45,292 bases of DNA from Alphaproteobacteria bacterium (GTDB lineage Bacteria > Pseudomonadota > Alphaproteobacteria > UBA6615). The notes under the pieces are model-generated. The model searched no databases. It worked only from the letters and a program-made list of their open reading frames with translations, and was not told the origin of the DNA. The position numbers and the translations under genes are program-made. Location of the stretch: NCBI GenBank assembly GCA_018666195.1, contig JABJAG010000202.1, forward strand, positions 1 to 45,292. Reading direction: 5' to 3'. Position 1 is the first letter of the stretch. Every line of letters begins with the position of its first letter. Positions 1,607 to 45,292 of this stretch are shown piece after piece.

Positions 1607-3712
1607 ATGCCACTGGATCAAAACCGCACAGAATCTGGGGTTGAAGACCTGAACGACGTTCAGGTTTTTCACTCTGCATGCCCTCATGATTGTCCGAGCA
1701 CTTGCGCGCTAGAGGTCGAACGCCTCAACCCGCAGACCATCGGGCGTGTTCGTGGGGCGAGTGCGAATACCTACACCTCGGGGGTGATCTGCGCGAAAGT
1801 CGCGCGTTATGCCGAGCGGGTGCATCATCCCGACCGTCTGACAAAGCCGCTACGTCGAGTCGGCGCGAAAGGCCTTGGACGCGAGGCCTTCGAGGAAATC
1901 TCCTGGGACGAGGCACTCGATATTGTGGCCGGTAAACTCAAAAGCGCTGCTGATCTGCACGGCCCGGAAACAGTCTGGCCCTATTATTATGCTGGCACGA
2001 TGGGTCTGGTACAGCGAGACGGCATTAATCGCTTGCGCCACGCAATGGGATATTCACGCCAGCATTCGACGTTCTGCAATACGCTGGCCGATGCGGGCTG
2101 GCTCGCAGGCGCGGGCTCGAAGACGGGCGTTGATGCGCGGGAGATGGTGGAGTCAGATTTAATCGTGATCTGGGGCTGCAATCCGGTGAGTACGCAGGTC
2201 AATGTGATGACCCATGCGACCCGTGCTCGAAAGACCCGAAATGCGAAGATCGTGGTTATAGATCCTTACGAAACCGAATCTGCCAAGCAGGCTGATATTC
2301 ATCTGATGCCGAACCCTGGCACTGACGGTGCGCTGGCTTGTGCTGTCATGCATGTGTTGTTCCGCGATGGATATGCAGATCGCGCTTACCTTGAAAAATT
2401 TACATCGGGATATGTGGAACTTGAGGCGCATCTGAAATTTCGAACACCGGACTGGGCCGAGGCAATCACGGGCATTTCTGCGGACGAGATTGAGGCATTT
2501 GCTGCGTTCTACGGAAAGACCCAACGGAGCTATCTGCGGCTGGGCTTTGGATTCACACGATCGCGCAACGGCGCAGTACAGATGTTTTCGGCGAGCTGCC
2601 TGCCGGCTGTAACTGGTGCGTGGCAGTATCCGGGTGGTGGGGCGCTGTATTCGAATGGTGGTATCTACGGGATCGATCAAACTCTCATCAAAGGTGAGGA
2701 TGTGATGGACACGTCGACTCGACTGCTAGATCAATCGCGTATCGGGCCGATTTTGACAGGTGATCCGCGTGACCTCGGAGATGGTCCCCCGGTCTCCGCG
2801 TTGTTCATCCAGAACACGAATCCGATGAATGTGGCACCTGATCTGGGCAAAGTACGCGAAGGTTTTGCGCGCGAGGATTTGTTTGTCTGTGTGCACGAAC
2901 AGTTTCTGACAGAAACCGCCGAGATGGCAGACATCGTGCTGCCAGCGACAACCTTTCTTGAACATGACGATATGTATGTGGCCGGAGGCCACACTCATCT
3001 TCAGGTGACCCGTGCTGTGATCGATCCGGTGGGAGAGTCGCGTTCCAACCACTGGGTACTGGCCGAGCTGGCCAAACGCCTGAATACGGATCACCCTGGT
3101 TTCGCCATGAGCGAATGGGAACTCATGGATGACGCGTTACAACGCTCAGGTTATCCCGATGTACAAACTTGCTGGGAGGGCCACTGGGAAGACCGCGCCT
3201 TGTCTTTTGAGGAGGCACATTTCCTCGAAGGTTTTGGGCATGACGACGGCAAATTCCACTTCATGCCCGACTGGTCGCAGATCGGCGGCAATCACGCCGG
3301 GATGCCGGCACTGCCGGATCACTATGATGCAATTGATGCACGGGATGATGAGCATCCGTTTCGGCTTGTGACCGCTCCGTCACGAAATTACCTCAACACC
3401 AGTTTCACCGAGACGGCAACGAGCCAGTCCCGGGAGGGACGACCTGAGGCGCAACTCCACCCCGACGTCTGCGGGGAGTTGCAGCTAGAAGCTGGTGATC
3501 TGGTGCGGATCGGCAACGTGCAGGGTTCTGTAGTTGTGCATGCGCGCCCGACACCGGGACTACGCCGGAATACGGTGATCGTCGAAAGCGTCTGGCCGAA
3601 CAAGGCATTTGTTGAGGGAATGGGGATCAATGTGCTGATCAGCGCAGAGGCTGGCCGCCCGAATGGTGGGGCCGTGTTCCACGATACTGCGGTTTGGCTG
3701 CGATCAGCATGA
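1607..3712 (+). CDS. Molybdopterin oxidoreductase (bis-PGD, 4Fe-4S), substrate unknown
   Basis: This 701-residue protein belongs to the Mo/W-bis-PGD oxidoreductase superfamily (the DMSO reductase and formate dehydrogenase group). C25, C29, C33 and C62 form the N-terminal 4Fe-4S site (CPHDCPSTC, then GVIC). The central molybdopterin domain follows, with C157 in the segment STFCNTLADAGW, where this superfamily carries its metal ligand. The C-terminal dinucleotide-binding domain starts near residue 585. No Tat signal is visible, so it is probably cytoplasmic. The ATG at 1607 is preceded by GGAG at 1594-1597; an in-frame GTG at 1547 has no such support. No electron-transfer subunit is adjacent, and the substrate cannot be inferred. 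Its stop overlaps the mipZ start (ATGA). Confidence 0.9.
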   Translation: MPLDQNRTESGVEDLNDVQVFHSACPHDCPSTCALEVERLNPQTIGRVRGASANTYTSGVICAKVARYAERVHHPDRLTKPLRRVGAKGLGREAFEEISWDEALDIVAGKLKSAADLHGPETVWPYYYAGTMGLVQRDGINRLRHAMGYSRQHSTFCNTLADAGWLAGAGSKTGVDAREMVESDLIVIWGCNPVSTQVNVMTHATRARKTRNAKIVVIDPYETESAKQADIHLMPNPGTDGALACAVMHVLFRDGYADRAYLEKFTSGYVELEAHLKFRTPDWAEAITGISADEIEAFAAFYGKTQRSYLRLGFGFTRSRNGAVQMFSASCLPAVTGAWQYPGGGALYSNGGIYGIDQTLIKGEDVMDTSTRLLDQSRIGPILTGDPRDLGDGPPVSALFIQNTNPMNVAPDLGKVREGFAREDLFVCVHEQFLTETAEMADIVLPATTFLEHDDMYVAGGHTHLQVTRAVIDPVGESRSNHWVLAELAKRLNTDHPGFAMSEWELMDDALQRSGYPDVQTCWEGHWEDRALSFEEAHFLEGFGHDDGKFHFMPDWSQIGGNHAGMPALPDHYDAIDARDDEHPFRLVTAPSRNYLNTSFTETATSQSREGRPEAQLHPDVCGELQLEAGDLVRIGNVQGSVVVHARPTPGLRRNTVIVESVWPNKAFVEGMGINVLISAEAGRPNGGAVFHDTAVWLRSA

Positions 3713-4542
3713 GCACGACCGTTATTGTCCTCGGCAACGAGAAGGGTGGAACGGGAAAATCGACCACAGCGATGCACATCATTGTTGGATTGCTGCGCGA
3801 AGGTTATGCCGTAGGGGCGATTGATCTTGATGCCCGTCAGGGTACGTTGACGCGATATTTCGACAATCGCGTCGCCTATGCTGAAAAGACGGGCATGAAC
3901 TTGCCGCAACCTGTCTATCGCTCGATCCAGCGCAGCGAATTGCGAGACAAGGTTCTGGCGACAGAAGACGAGCGTCAGCAGGTGCAGAACCTGGTCGATG
4001 ATATCTCCCGGCATTGCGATATCATCGTGATTGACACCCCGGGTAGCGACAATCCGCTATCCCGAGCAGGACACTCGTTTGCGGACATTCTCGTCACACC
4101 AATGAATGACAGTTTTGTGGATTTGGATTTGCTTGGACATATCGATCCGGACACCAATGCTGTCCGTGCGCTCAGCAGCTATTCCGAAATGGTCTGGGAT
4201 CAGAAGAAGTCTCGTGCGCTACGTGATGGTGGTTCGATCGACTGGGTGGTCATGCGAAATCGATTGGCGACACTCGATACGAAGAACAAGCGAAACATGG
4301 ATGCTGCGCTGGAGGCATTGTCCGAACGGCTGGCATTTCGCCTGGCGCATGGTTTCAGCGAGCGGGTGATTTTTCGCGAATTGTTTCTGAAAGGACTTAC
4401 CCTGCTGGACGTCCGCGAAGAAAGGTCGGCAGTCGAGTTGACGATGTCCCATGTGGCGGCATTGCAGGAAGTCAGGAACCTGCTACATGCATTGGGCGTT
4501 CCTGAAGTCGTTGCCGCACCCAGTGTCGCGGCTTCAGGGTAG
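3709..4542 (+). CDS. mipZ: MipZ, division-plane positioning ATPase
   Basis: This 277-residue ParA/MinD-type ATPase strongly resembles MipZ of Caulobacter. That protein binds ParB near the origin and blocks FtsZ assembly at the poles, placing the division ring at mid-cell. The deviant Walker A motif KGGTGKS is at residues 12-18, preceded by GNE as in MipZ. Other MipZ-like blocks are IDLDARQ, IDTPGSDN, VTPMNDSFVDLDLLG, WVVMRNRLAT and FRELFLKGLTLLD. I chose ATG 3709, whose last two bases plus the next A form the stop of the upstream gene (ATGA). A TTG 15 bases upstream is the only earlier option. Coupling a division regulator to a molybdoenzyme is unexpected; a separate mipZ promoter may lie inside the upstream gene, but I cannot identify one. 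Confidence 0.93.
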   Translation: MSTTVIVLGNEKGGTGKSTTAMHIIVGLLREGYAVGAIDLDARQGTLTRYFDNRVAYAEKTGMNLPQPVYRSIQRSELRDKVLATEDERQQVQNLVDDISRHCDIIVIDTPGSDNPLSRAGHSFADILVTPMNDSFVDLDLLGHIDPDTNAVRALSSYSEMVWDQKKSRALRDGGSIDWVVMRNRLATLDTKNKRNMDAALEALSERLAFRLAHGFSERVIFRELFLKGLTLLDVREERSAVELTMSHVAALQEVRNLLHALGVPEVVAAPSVAASG

Positions 4543-4551
4543 GAGCGGCAT

Positions 4552-5277
4552 ATGACCGGTGACACGCACGATCCGAAACTACCGGCAGGCCGATCCAGCC
4601 GTGCTGACATTGATGCGTTCCTCAACAAGGTTGCAACCACACCTGTTCAGCGTTCGGCTGGGCAACGAGGACGGTTGCTGTTCGCCATTGATGCAACGGC
4701 CAGCCGCGAGCCCACATGGGACATGGCCTGCCAGTTGCAGTCAGAGATGTTTACCTCAACAGAGGAAATCGGAGGGCTGGAAGTTCAACTGGCCTTTTAT
4801 CGTGGATTTGGCGAAATGAAGGTCACCCAGTGGCTTGAATCTCCCGAAGAGTTGGTAAGGCGTATGTTGAAGGTACGTTGCCTTGCCGGGCGTACCCAGA
4901 TCCGGAAACTGCTCAGCCACACCCTGAAAGAAACCAGCCGTCGCAAGGTTGATGCACTGGTTTTTGTGGGTGATGTGGTTGAAGAGGATATTGACGATCT
5001 GGGTCATCTGGCTGGTCAGTTGGGGCTGGTAGGTACTCCGGTGTTTATCTTTCATGAGGGCGGTGAGCCAATCTCGCGCCGTGCCTTTGAACAGGTTGCG
5101 CGTTTGTCGGGCGGAGCTTGCTGTGGTTTTGATGCGGGTAGCGCCAAGCAATTACGTGAGCTTCTGGCCGCTGTGGCCGTCTTCTCGGCGGGCGGTCGTC
5201 GCGCGTTGGAGAATTTGGGCAAAACCCGCGGCGGGCGGGTGTTGCAAATTGCTGATCAGATGCGTGGAAAGAGGTAG
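4552..5277 (+). CDS. VWA domain-containing protein downstream of mipZ
   Basis: This 241-residue protein has a von Willebrand factor A fold. After a short polar N-terminus, the hydrophobic strand LLFAID leads into D47-x-T49-x-S51, a variant of the MIDAS metal site (normally DxSxS). Strands ALVFVGD and PVFIFHE match later core strands of the fold. There is no signal peptide or membrane segment, so it is probably cytosolic. It starts 9 bases after the mipZ stop with a GGAG ribosome site, and ends 5 bases before the J-domain gene. The role is unknown; VWA proteins often assemble with ATPases or chaperones, and its position suggests a link to MipZ or the J-domain protein. That link is inference. 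Confidence 0.8.
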   Translation: MTGDTHDPKLPAGRSSRADIDAFLNKVATTPVQRSAGQRGRLLFAIDATASREPTWDMACQLQSEMFTSTEEIGGLEVQLAFYRGFGEMKVTQWLESPEELVRRMLKVRCLAGRTQIRKLLSHTLKETSRRKVDALVFVGDVVEEDIDDLGHLAGQLGLVGTPVFIFHEGGEPISRRAFEQVARLSGGACCGFDAGSAKQLRELLAAVAVFSAGGRRALENLGKTRGGRVLQIADQMRGKR

Positions 5278-42623: not shown

Positions 42624-42656
42624 GGGAAGCTGATAGTTGTCAGTGACTGATTTCCC
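42624..42656 (+). promoter_or_regulatory. Stem-loop with nested palindromes upstream of bioY
   Basis: GGGAA (42624-42628) and TTCCC (42652-42656) bracket two further inverted repeats: CTGA-N6-TCAG (42630-42643) and TCAGTGACTGA (42640-42650). The element lies 22 bases upstream of the bioY ATG. It does not match the known BioR box TTATN2ATAA. It could be an operator or an RNA structure; unassigned. Confidence 0.35.
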
Positions 42657-42678
42657 GCCGTTAATCCGGAGACGAACA

Positions 42679-43260
42679 ATGCAGACAGCAATAGGCACCG
42701 CCCCCACATTGATCAATGCAATTTGGCCTCGTGAAACCGGTGGTTTGTTGCGCCTGGCTTTGTTGGCAATTGCCGGAAGTGCATTGATGGCGGTTTCCGC
42801 CAAAATTCAGGTGCCAATGTGGCCTGTGCCTATGACCATGCAGACTTTCGCCGTACTCGTAATTGGTATGGCTTATGGCGCACGGTTGGCCGGTGCGACT
42901 CTTCTGCTCTACCTCGCCGAAGGTGCGGTTGGGTTTCCGGTCTTCGCAAGCGGTGGTGGCATTGCTTATATGGCCGGCCCAACAGGTGGCTACCTTGTGG
43001 GCTTCCTGATTGCCGCTGTGATGGTGGGCTGGTTGGCAGAGCGTGGTTGGGACCGTAATGTCGTATTGACGTTCCTCGCCAATCTTGGAGGTACGGTGAT
43101 CATCTTTGCAGTTGGCGTTGCGTGGTTATCAACCATCATGGAGGGTGTTGAAAAAGCCGTTGCAGCGGGGTTTCAACCCTTCTTGGTCGGCGCCGTCGTG
43201 AAGATTGCTCTGGCTGCGGCTATCCTGCCACTGGTCTGGAAGCTCTTGCCGAGGCGTTAG
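42679..43260 (+). CDS. bioY: Biotin transporter BioY (ECF S component)
   Basis: BioY is the biotin-binding membrane subunit of an energy-coupling-factor transporter, and some BioY proteins work without the EcfAT module. The 193-residue protein has about six hydrophobic segments. The family pattern is seen as KIQVPMWPVPMTMQTFAVLVIG, GARLAGATLLLYLAEGAVGFPVFASGGG and GPTGGYLVGFLIAA. I chose ATG 42679, preceded by GGAG at about 42668; an upstream GTG at 42637 is unlikely. No bioMN (ecfAT) gene is adjacent. It ends before a strong terminator. It would supply biotin for AccB. Confidence 0.93.
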   Translation: MQTAIGTAPTLINAIWPRETGGLLRLALLAIAGSALMAVSAKIQVPMWPVPMTMQTFAVLVIGMAYGARLAGATLLLYLAEGAVGFPVFASGGGIAYMAGPTGGYLVGFLIAAVMVGWLAERGWDRNVVLTFLANLGGTVIIFAVGVAWLSTIMEGVEKAVAAGFQPFLVGAVVKIALAAAILPLVWKLLPRR

Positions 43261-43344: not shown

Positions 43345-45292
43345 TCAGAAGTTGAGAGATATATCCCGATGGATCGCAAGGCAGGAAGCTATCTCGCTAA
43401 TTTTCTCTGACGGCAGGCGGTCCTGTTGGCGCAGGCCGATGGTCTGGGAAATGGATTGGTCGTAGTCAGCGAGTGTATCTGACATCTGTTCGGCCGCGCG
43501 CATTCGCCAAGCCAACTCGTCGAGATACAGAGCGACGGCTTTCTGGACTTCTGCTGCTGCCTTTGCTGGTTTCGGGCTCCGTGCTGAGAGTGCGCGGCGG
43601 GCCTGAGTCAGTGCTGACCGTATCTTGTTTGTATCGGCGCGTTTCGAAAGGGCTGATTCTGCCGCTTTCAACGTCGCGATTGCGTCTTCGGAGGATTGAT
43701 TGGCCAGGGCATCTGGCAATGCGGTGACGATGTTCTTCGTGCCTGCAAAATCATTGGCATCTGCAAGGATCTGGCGCAATTCGACAATCGGTACATAGGC
43801 CTGATCAACATTTCGTCGATATGTGAGGCGCGCCTTCTTCTCAGCACCAGCGAGCGCAACATACTTCTTGCGTGCGCTTTCCCAGTTGGCTGGCAGAGAG
43901 GACTCAAGCACTTTTCGTTCAGCTTCGGCTTCAATGATGCGGGCCTCGGCATGCGCAACATCCTTTGCAATGACTTCGCCGTTGCGTTTGTTTTGGCGAA
44001 GCTCTTTGCGCAGTTCGGTTACTTCAGCCTTGTGGTCGCGGATGTCGGTCTGAATTGCGCGAACATTGCGATGAATTGGCTGATATTCAGGTACATAGGT
44101 TTGAAGGGCGATGTGGCTCATTCGAACGCCTTCAATCAAGTCGAAGGTGGCAAGTGCCTTGTCGAAACTTGCGGTCAGATCTTTCCCGCGTTTGTCGGGC
44201 AGGTAGCTGAAATCAAGCGTTCGCCCCAGTTCAATGGCCGTGACCAATGCGGTTTGCTGTTGGTCGTAAACCGGGAACAGATGTTCTTCCAGGCAGAGTT
44301 GCAGCCTAGGGTTATTCGGTGGCGGTGCTGTGTCCGCAGATAGGAATGATTGATTGGGCAAGAAATTTACCAGCGAAGGGAAAGCTCCAACAATGGCCAG
44401 ACCGAGAAGTTGAAGGCCGATAAAGGCCGCGACGCCTTTATACATGGACGTCGTTTTGACAATCGCAGGTGCGACGCCACGCAAGTAGAACAATGCAAAT
44501 CCGAACGGGGGTGTCAGGAAGGACGTCTGCATGTTGACGCCGATCATCACGCCCAGCCAGACCGCCGTGATGTTTGCGGAAGGGTCCTGCAATAGGATAG
44601 GAGCGACGATAGGAACGACGACAACGGCTATCTCGATGAAGTCGAGAAAAAACCCGAGTACGAAGATCACGCCCATAACCACAATGAACTGGGTCCAGAA
44701 CCCACCTGGGAGTCCACCGAGGAACTCTTTCACCAGTTCTTCGCCGCCAAACGCGCGAAACGCGGCGGTTAGCATCGCAGCACCGAGCAGAATAATGAAA
44801 ACCATTGAGGTGGTCTTCGCTGTCTCGATCATGACGCTACGCATCGTGTCGTCGATCTTGTGGACACGCCAACCGCTCCAAAGGACCGCAATCAGGAATG
44901 CAATGACAGCTCCCACGGCCAGCAGAACGCCGAACAGGTCAGTCCCTGTGTCGATACTCTTGATGTTGAGATCAAAGCTGCCCAGCAGAAAAAACACGGC
45001 CACGATAGAGGCAATGGCGATCAGGGCAGGGACATAGGTGAGGCGATTGCCTTCCGTCAGCCGGTAACCTGCCATGATGATGGCTCCGACGGCACCAATG
45101 GCACCTGCTTGGTTGACGGTGGCGATGCCCATGATGATTGAGCCGAGCACGGCAAGAATTAAGGCGAGTGGCGGGATCAGAACGAGCAGAACGCGGAGTG
45201 CGAAACGAAGATCGAAGGCACCTTCGCGTTTAACCGAGGGTGCGCTCTTGGGGCGGATCAGTGCGAAGATGAGGATATATGTAAGGTACAGG
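43345..45292 (-). CDS. TRAP transporter large permease (DctM type) with long C-terminal extension; 5' end outside the window
   Basis: This is the C-terminal 648 codons of a TRAP-type large membrane subunit, which imports organic acids or similar solutes using a substrate-binding protein. The frame is open to the right edge, so the start is not visible. Family blocks include GAIIMAG, MVFIILLGAAMLTAAF, VIFVLGFFLDFIEIAVVVVPIV and MIGVNMQTSFLTPPFGFALFYLRG. DctM proteins normally end shortly after the last membrane helix (here AIVGAFPSLVNFLP near 44360). This one continues for about 330 mostly hydrophilic, helical residues rich in Ala, Glu, Lys and Arg, with a likely coiled coil around TELRKELRQNKR. 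The extension may be a partner-binding or regulatory domain. The substrate is unknown, and the DctP and DctQ partners are not visible. Confidence 0.9.
   Translation of the reverse strand, partial: LYLTYILIFALIRPKSAPSVKREGAFDLRFALRVLLVLIPPLALILAVLGSIIMGIATVNQAGAIGAVGAIIMAGYRLTEGNRLTYVPALIAIASIVAVFFLLGSFDLNIKSIDTGTDLFGVLLAVGAVIAFLIAVLWSGWRVHKIDDTMRSVMIETAKTTSMVFIILLGAAMLTAAFRAFGGEELVKEFLGGLPGGFWTQFIVVMGVIFVLGFFLDFIEIAVVVVPIVAPILLQDPSANITAVWLGVMIGVNMQTSFLTPPFGFALFYLRGVAPAIVKTTSMYKGVAAFIGLQLLGLAIVGAFPSLVNFLPNQSFLSADTAPPPNNPRLQLCLEEHLFPVYDQQQTALVTAIELGRTLDFSYLPDKRGKDLTASFDKALATFDLIEGVRMSHIALQTYVPEYQPIHRNVRAIQTDIRDHKAEVTELRKELRQNKRNGEVIAKDVAHAEARIIEAEAERKVLESSLPANWESARKKYVALAGAEKKARLTYRRNVDQAYVPIVELRQILADANDFAGTKNIVTALPDALANQSSEDAIATLKAAESALSKRADTNKIRSALTQARRALSARSPKPAKAAAEVQKAVALYLDELAWRMRAAEQMSDTLADYDQSISQTIGLRQQDRLPSEKISEIASCLAIHRDISLNF

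Follow-up and report, generated by a model that had tools for sequence, protein, structure and literature searches.

The large permease subunit of a DctP-type TRAP importer, encoded at the end of an alphaproteobacterial contig, continues past its last membrane helix into an all-helical C-terminal extension, apparently an undescribed and unclassified domain. It is characteristic of an entire alphaproteobacterial lineage of keto-acid-type importers. What is new here is this domain, together with a paired long DctQ, on an otherwise ordinary DctM permease.

A helical domain on a DctM permease

The window, the whole stretch of 45,292 nucleotides that we analysed, is an entire contig. Its end, at position 45292, falls within a DctM-type gene on the minus strand (open reading frame 43345-45291, which reaches 648 aa before it runs off the contig), and the permease is truncated at its start. 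Residues 1-313 of the truncated protein correspond to residues 240-552 of full-length relatives. In a close relative, an uncultured alphaproteobacterium (CALSML010000016.1, locus L010), the full-length permease has 887 aa, and the BioY, ParC, RecO, Era and RNase III neighbours follow one another as they do in the window. The BioY-family gene (PF02632, window 42637-43260) is convergent with the DctM gene and adjoins parC, recO, era and rnc. The 5′ part of DctM, DctQ and DctP have no close match anywhere in the window's own genome assembly, and a gap in the assembly is the probable reason why the operon start is missing.

The window protein is the large subunit (M) of a DctP-type TRAP importer and an ordinary member of the DctM family. 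PF06808 (DctM) covers residues up to about 306 with 103.7 bits against a cut-off of 23.8, and scores 211.6 bits in a full-length relative; TIGR00786 scores 255.4 bits, slightly under its cut-off of 268.45. The preliminary description had proposed that the permease runs on for some 330 residues beyond the last DctM helix, charged and free of membrane segments, and the sequence bears this out. The extension begins at about residue 314 (nucleotide ~44352), in one continuous open frame that passes the last membrane helix, contains no hydrophobic segment and has 47 K/R and 46 D/E among 342 residues. In L010, the tail beyond the last hydrophobic segment is 344 residues long.

Table 1 Features of the permease gene in the window.
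Feature	Position	Strand	Basis
DctM core, C-terminal part	44353..45291	-	Pfam DctM E 1.4e-29; collinear with complete relatives of 887 aa
C-terminal extension (all-alpha domain of about 335 residues)	43348..44352	-	no Pfam/NCBIfam/PDB relative; AlphaFold2; conserved in 42 sequences
Invariant Cys333, in TAPPPxNPRLQxC motif at extension start	44293..44295	-	42/42 sequences
Predicted 72-residue helix, first arm of long hairpin (model residues 60-131)	43981..44196	-	AlphaFold2
Predicted returning hairpin helices (model residues 136-158, 164-204)	43762..43968	-	AlphaFold2
Invariant Cys637, in C-terminal motif GLRxQxRLP...AxC..HRDISLNF	43381..43383	-	42/42 sequences

AlphaFold2, run on the extension alone with 42 sequences, yields a confident all-helical model (pLDDT 94.6, pTM 0.85) of a folded domain of several helices that includes a long hairpin (Table 1). 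The earlier suggestion of a coiled coil thus survives in the hairpin, while the extension as a whole is predicted to be a folded domain. Indels among relatives concentrate close to the hairpin tip (about residues 130-140). A full-length model built from 15 sequences was poor in its membrane part (pLDDT 59.8 overall), and we therefore draw no domain placement from it.

That the extension resembled no recognised domain was also confirmed. Neither residues 307-648 nor the 42 extensions gave a convincing Pfam or NCBIfam match (the latter at E 0.01, among the 25 of 51 families listed), and no sequence relative was found in the PDB. Foldseek returned nothing at E <= 0.001 against the PDB and viral structure models, so no known fold is recognised; the top match, HlyD, was insignificant (E 0.14, TM 0.17). 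Matches to SMC, GAS, Fez1, EzrA, syntaxin and GCN4 were weak and scattered between members, and were set aside as coiled-coil composition.

All 42 aligned extensions contain exactly two cysteines, close to both ends (alignment columns 27 and 336); in most full-length extended proteins these are the only cysteines. Conservation is highest at both ends and in the mid-bundle motifs YRPLHRxVR, ARxxYRRxVDxAY and WR; it is low around the hairpin tip, and the middle of the extension is fast-evolving. The extension is under purifying selection: between the window and a relative (L011), dN is 0.10 and dS 1.6, with differences mostly at third codon positions, giving a dN/dS of ~0.06 that is approximate since dS is near saturation. 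The permease core is under stronger constraint in the same comparison (dN 0.02).

Distribution and operon partners

The full-length extension occurs in about 40 relatives from more than 20 alphaproteobacterial families, always fused to DctM. Searches with the extension profile were positive for 32 of the 385 genomes sampled from the class and for 8 of the 398 from the phylum, with the window's own genome counted in both. Strong matches all lie within the same class, in open frames of 838-960 residues except for the truncated window copy. Each search also gave one weak match, with E between about 4e-4 and 8e-4. Of these two, one lies outside the class; both span just 60-85 residues and look like coiled-coil matches. 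In plasmid records the extension was not found, and the permease core alone was matched, with at most 60% query coverage among the matches listed.

When the core alone served as query, untruncated matches of at least 61% identity all carried the extension and those of 53% or less all lacked it; the only remaining case is a core truncated by a contig edge (67%, G030). On a tree of cores, 22 extension-bearing cores lie on one side of a single branch with support 100/100, and the extension requires 1 change, compared with 15.4 in shuffles. The extension was thus apparently gained once, within Alphaproteobacteria. The sister of the extended clade is placed as L095, whose DctM has large internal insertions and lacks the extension, although this placement is on a long branch and may be a long-branch artefact. 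The L095 DctM is a 788-aa minus-strand frame (2666-5029 in reverse-complement positions) with a DctQ of 309 aa. Another extension-less sister DctM (L033, G052) ends in a different, shorter, acidic and repetitive tail with DDLFKEDD-like repeats.

The partner genes, which would lie beyond the contig end, could be seen in relatives. L010 has the order DctP-DctQ-DctM, as do all 11 other extension-bearing operons with full upstream DNA (sample L010 and L076 to L087; the upstream DNA of L088 is too short for P and Q). Extension-less alphaproteobacterial sister operons likewise have DctP, DctQ and DctM genes, with cores about 45-53% identical, but their M frames are mostly 520-600 aa. The DctQ subunits also differ: those of the extended clade are 322-384 aa, with 7-8 hydrophobic segments where plotted, whereas in the five sisters with a clean Q frame the range is 183-224 aa, with 3-4 segments. 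The co-occurrence of long DctQ and extension counts as one event rather than independent support, because both share one ancestry. In the extended clade (L010:3283-4329; L076-L087), DctQ has ~180 additional N-terminal residues with about three extra hydrophobic segments; in L010, PF04290 matches just the C-terminal residues 202-324.

The L010 binding protein belongs to the DctP family (PF03480) and matches the TakP/SmoM structures 2HZK/2HZL (E 8e-69) and the ketoacid-binding protein 7UG8 (E 3e-69). By sequence, the extended permeases appear to pair with a TakP-like binding protein, with alpha-keto acid as the predicted substrate. In this respect the L010 operon resembles TakPQM, the alpha-keto acid TRAP transporter of Rhodobacter sphaeroides. 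TakP is a helix-swapped dimer (PMC1839085), and the passages found in that paper make no mention of a TakM extension. Binding-protein N-termini in both groups are ordinary Tat-like signals with no clear anchor difference. Extended-clade DctP proteins (L010, L076-L087) mostly end in a QRNRVLGL-like C-terminus, absent from most sister operons, in the region where TakP carries its dimer-swapping helix.

A putative periplasmic arm

Of the solved relatives, SiaM is N-out/C-out, and its TM10-12 are part of the moving transport domain (PMC9971032). The core of the extended permeases aligns with SiaM/SiaT (7QE5, 7QHA, 8THI) in several stretches and up to the C-terminus. The extended-family profile reaches chain residue 651 of 655 in SiaT, equivalent to residue 552 of a full-length relative, which is the point where the extension begins; a typical large permease does stop near here, as had been supposed, for the SiaQM structures end at this position. 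SiaM also lacks a core insert of ~70 residues, but this contains two hydrophobic segments and so keeps the topology in parity with SiaM. Taken together, the C-out topology of SiaM, the alignment ending at its known C-terminus and the invariant lone cysteine pair provide good support for placing the extension on the periplasmic side. As every extension has its two cysteines and most whole proteins have no others, a Cys333-Cys637 disulfide probably closes the domain.

The closest precedent is the TAXI-type VcGluQM, whose periplasmic C-terminal claw is predicted to contact and hold the binding protein; according to the authors of that study, no claw-like extension of this kind had been reported for DctP-type TRAPs (PMC11574862). 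Both permeases would share a C-terminal extension with a periplasmic soluble domain joined to the transport domain. In VcGluQM, however, the extension is 185 residues long and comprises three additional TM helices plus a globular DUF3394 domain, whereas the permeases described here are DctP-type, and their extension is predicted to be all-helical, with no extra C-terminal TM. DUF3394 has no match in the window protein (E 1) or in the 42 extensions (E 0.01, among the 25 of 51 families listed). A TAXI-type binding protein and a fused QM are absent as well, the partner in L010 being of the DctP family (PF03480) with separate Q and M genes. The extension is best read as analogous, not homologous, to the TAXI claw. 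In the literature searched, which covered few subscription-journal papers, the claw paper was the only description of a DctM extension, and we found no DctM subfamily in which the present domain is already described.

In our proposed model, the chain would emerge from the final transport-domain helix into the periplasm and pass through the conserved APPP linker into a helical bundle with the long hairpin. A Cys333-Cys637 disulfide would tie the two ends of the domain together, which would place the conserved base next to the membrane and point the variable hairpin outward. The conserved ends would then be the likely membrane-proximal base, seated on the elevator domain. Since the extension would hang on this moving domain, it may serve to dock or gate the TakP-type substrate-binding protein, which is probably dimeric, and the VcGluQM claw leads us to favour such an arm. 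We consider it about an even chance that the extension is a once-gained periplasmic helical arm that helps to dock or gate a TakP-type binding protein. More tentatively, and with appreciably lower probability, a disulfide-locked arm of new fold and the enlarged DctQ might jointly and mechanically couple elevator motion to how a dimeric binding protein docks, opens and is released.

The main rival casts the extension as an arm for oligomerisation or assembly in the periplasm, with the hairpin pairing two QM units or packing on the enlarged DctQ; a dimeric binding protein would thereby face two permeases. The long hairpin of the model, the co-occurrence with a ~7-helix DctQ and the dimeric state of TakP (PMC1839085) all fit this proposal, and the fast-evolving middle, which counts against a docking arm, would also suit an oligomerisation arm or a structural spacer. 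Against it, conservation is concentrated at the two ends and mid-bundle, and not along the hairpin, and we regard an assembly role as possible but rather doubtful.

Transporters often carry charged helical extensions in the cytoplasm, which would speak for a regulatory or sensing domain on that side of the membrane. This is improbable here, because the solved relatives are C-out and terminate at the same place, and two invariant cysteines in a protein that otherwise lacks them fit an oxidising compartment. Similarly unlikely is a span across the periplasm to an envelope partner, such as peptidoglycan or an outer membrane porin, that positions the importer. A 72-residue helix would measure about 100 Å, and the top fold match is HlyD; yet that match is insignificant, and the hairpin tip has no conserved motif and is among the most variable parts. 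Finally, a frame error or misassembly fusing two genes, conceivable for a protein truncated by a contig end, is rejected with near certainty, since independent genomes carry the same fusion, with the same junction in all untruncated relatives (core identity at least 61%), the 42 relatives are collinear and open, and the single frame is under purifying selection.

How TRAP permeases and their binding proteins are coupled has yet to be settled. This subfamily is a natural extended version of the DctP type, with a matching long DctQ and extension-less sisters for comparison. If true, an arm that couples elevator motion to the binding protein would give these TRAP transporters an operating mode of their own.
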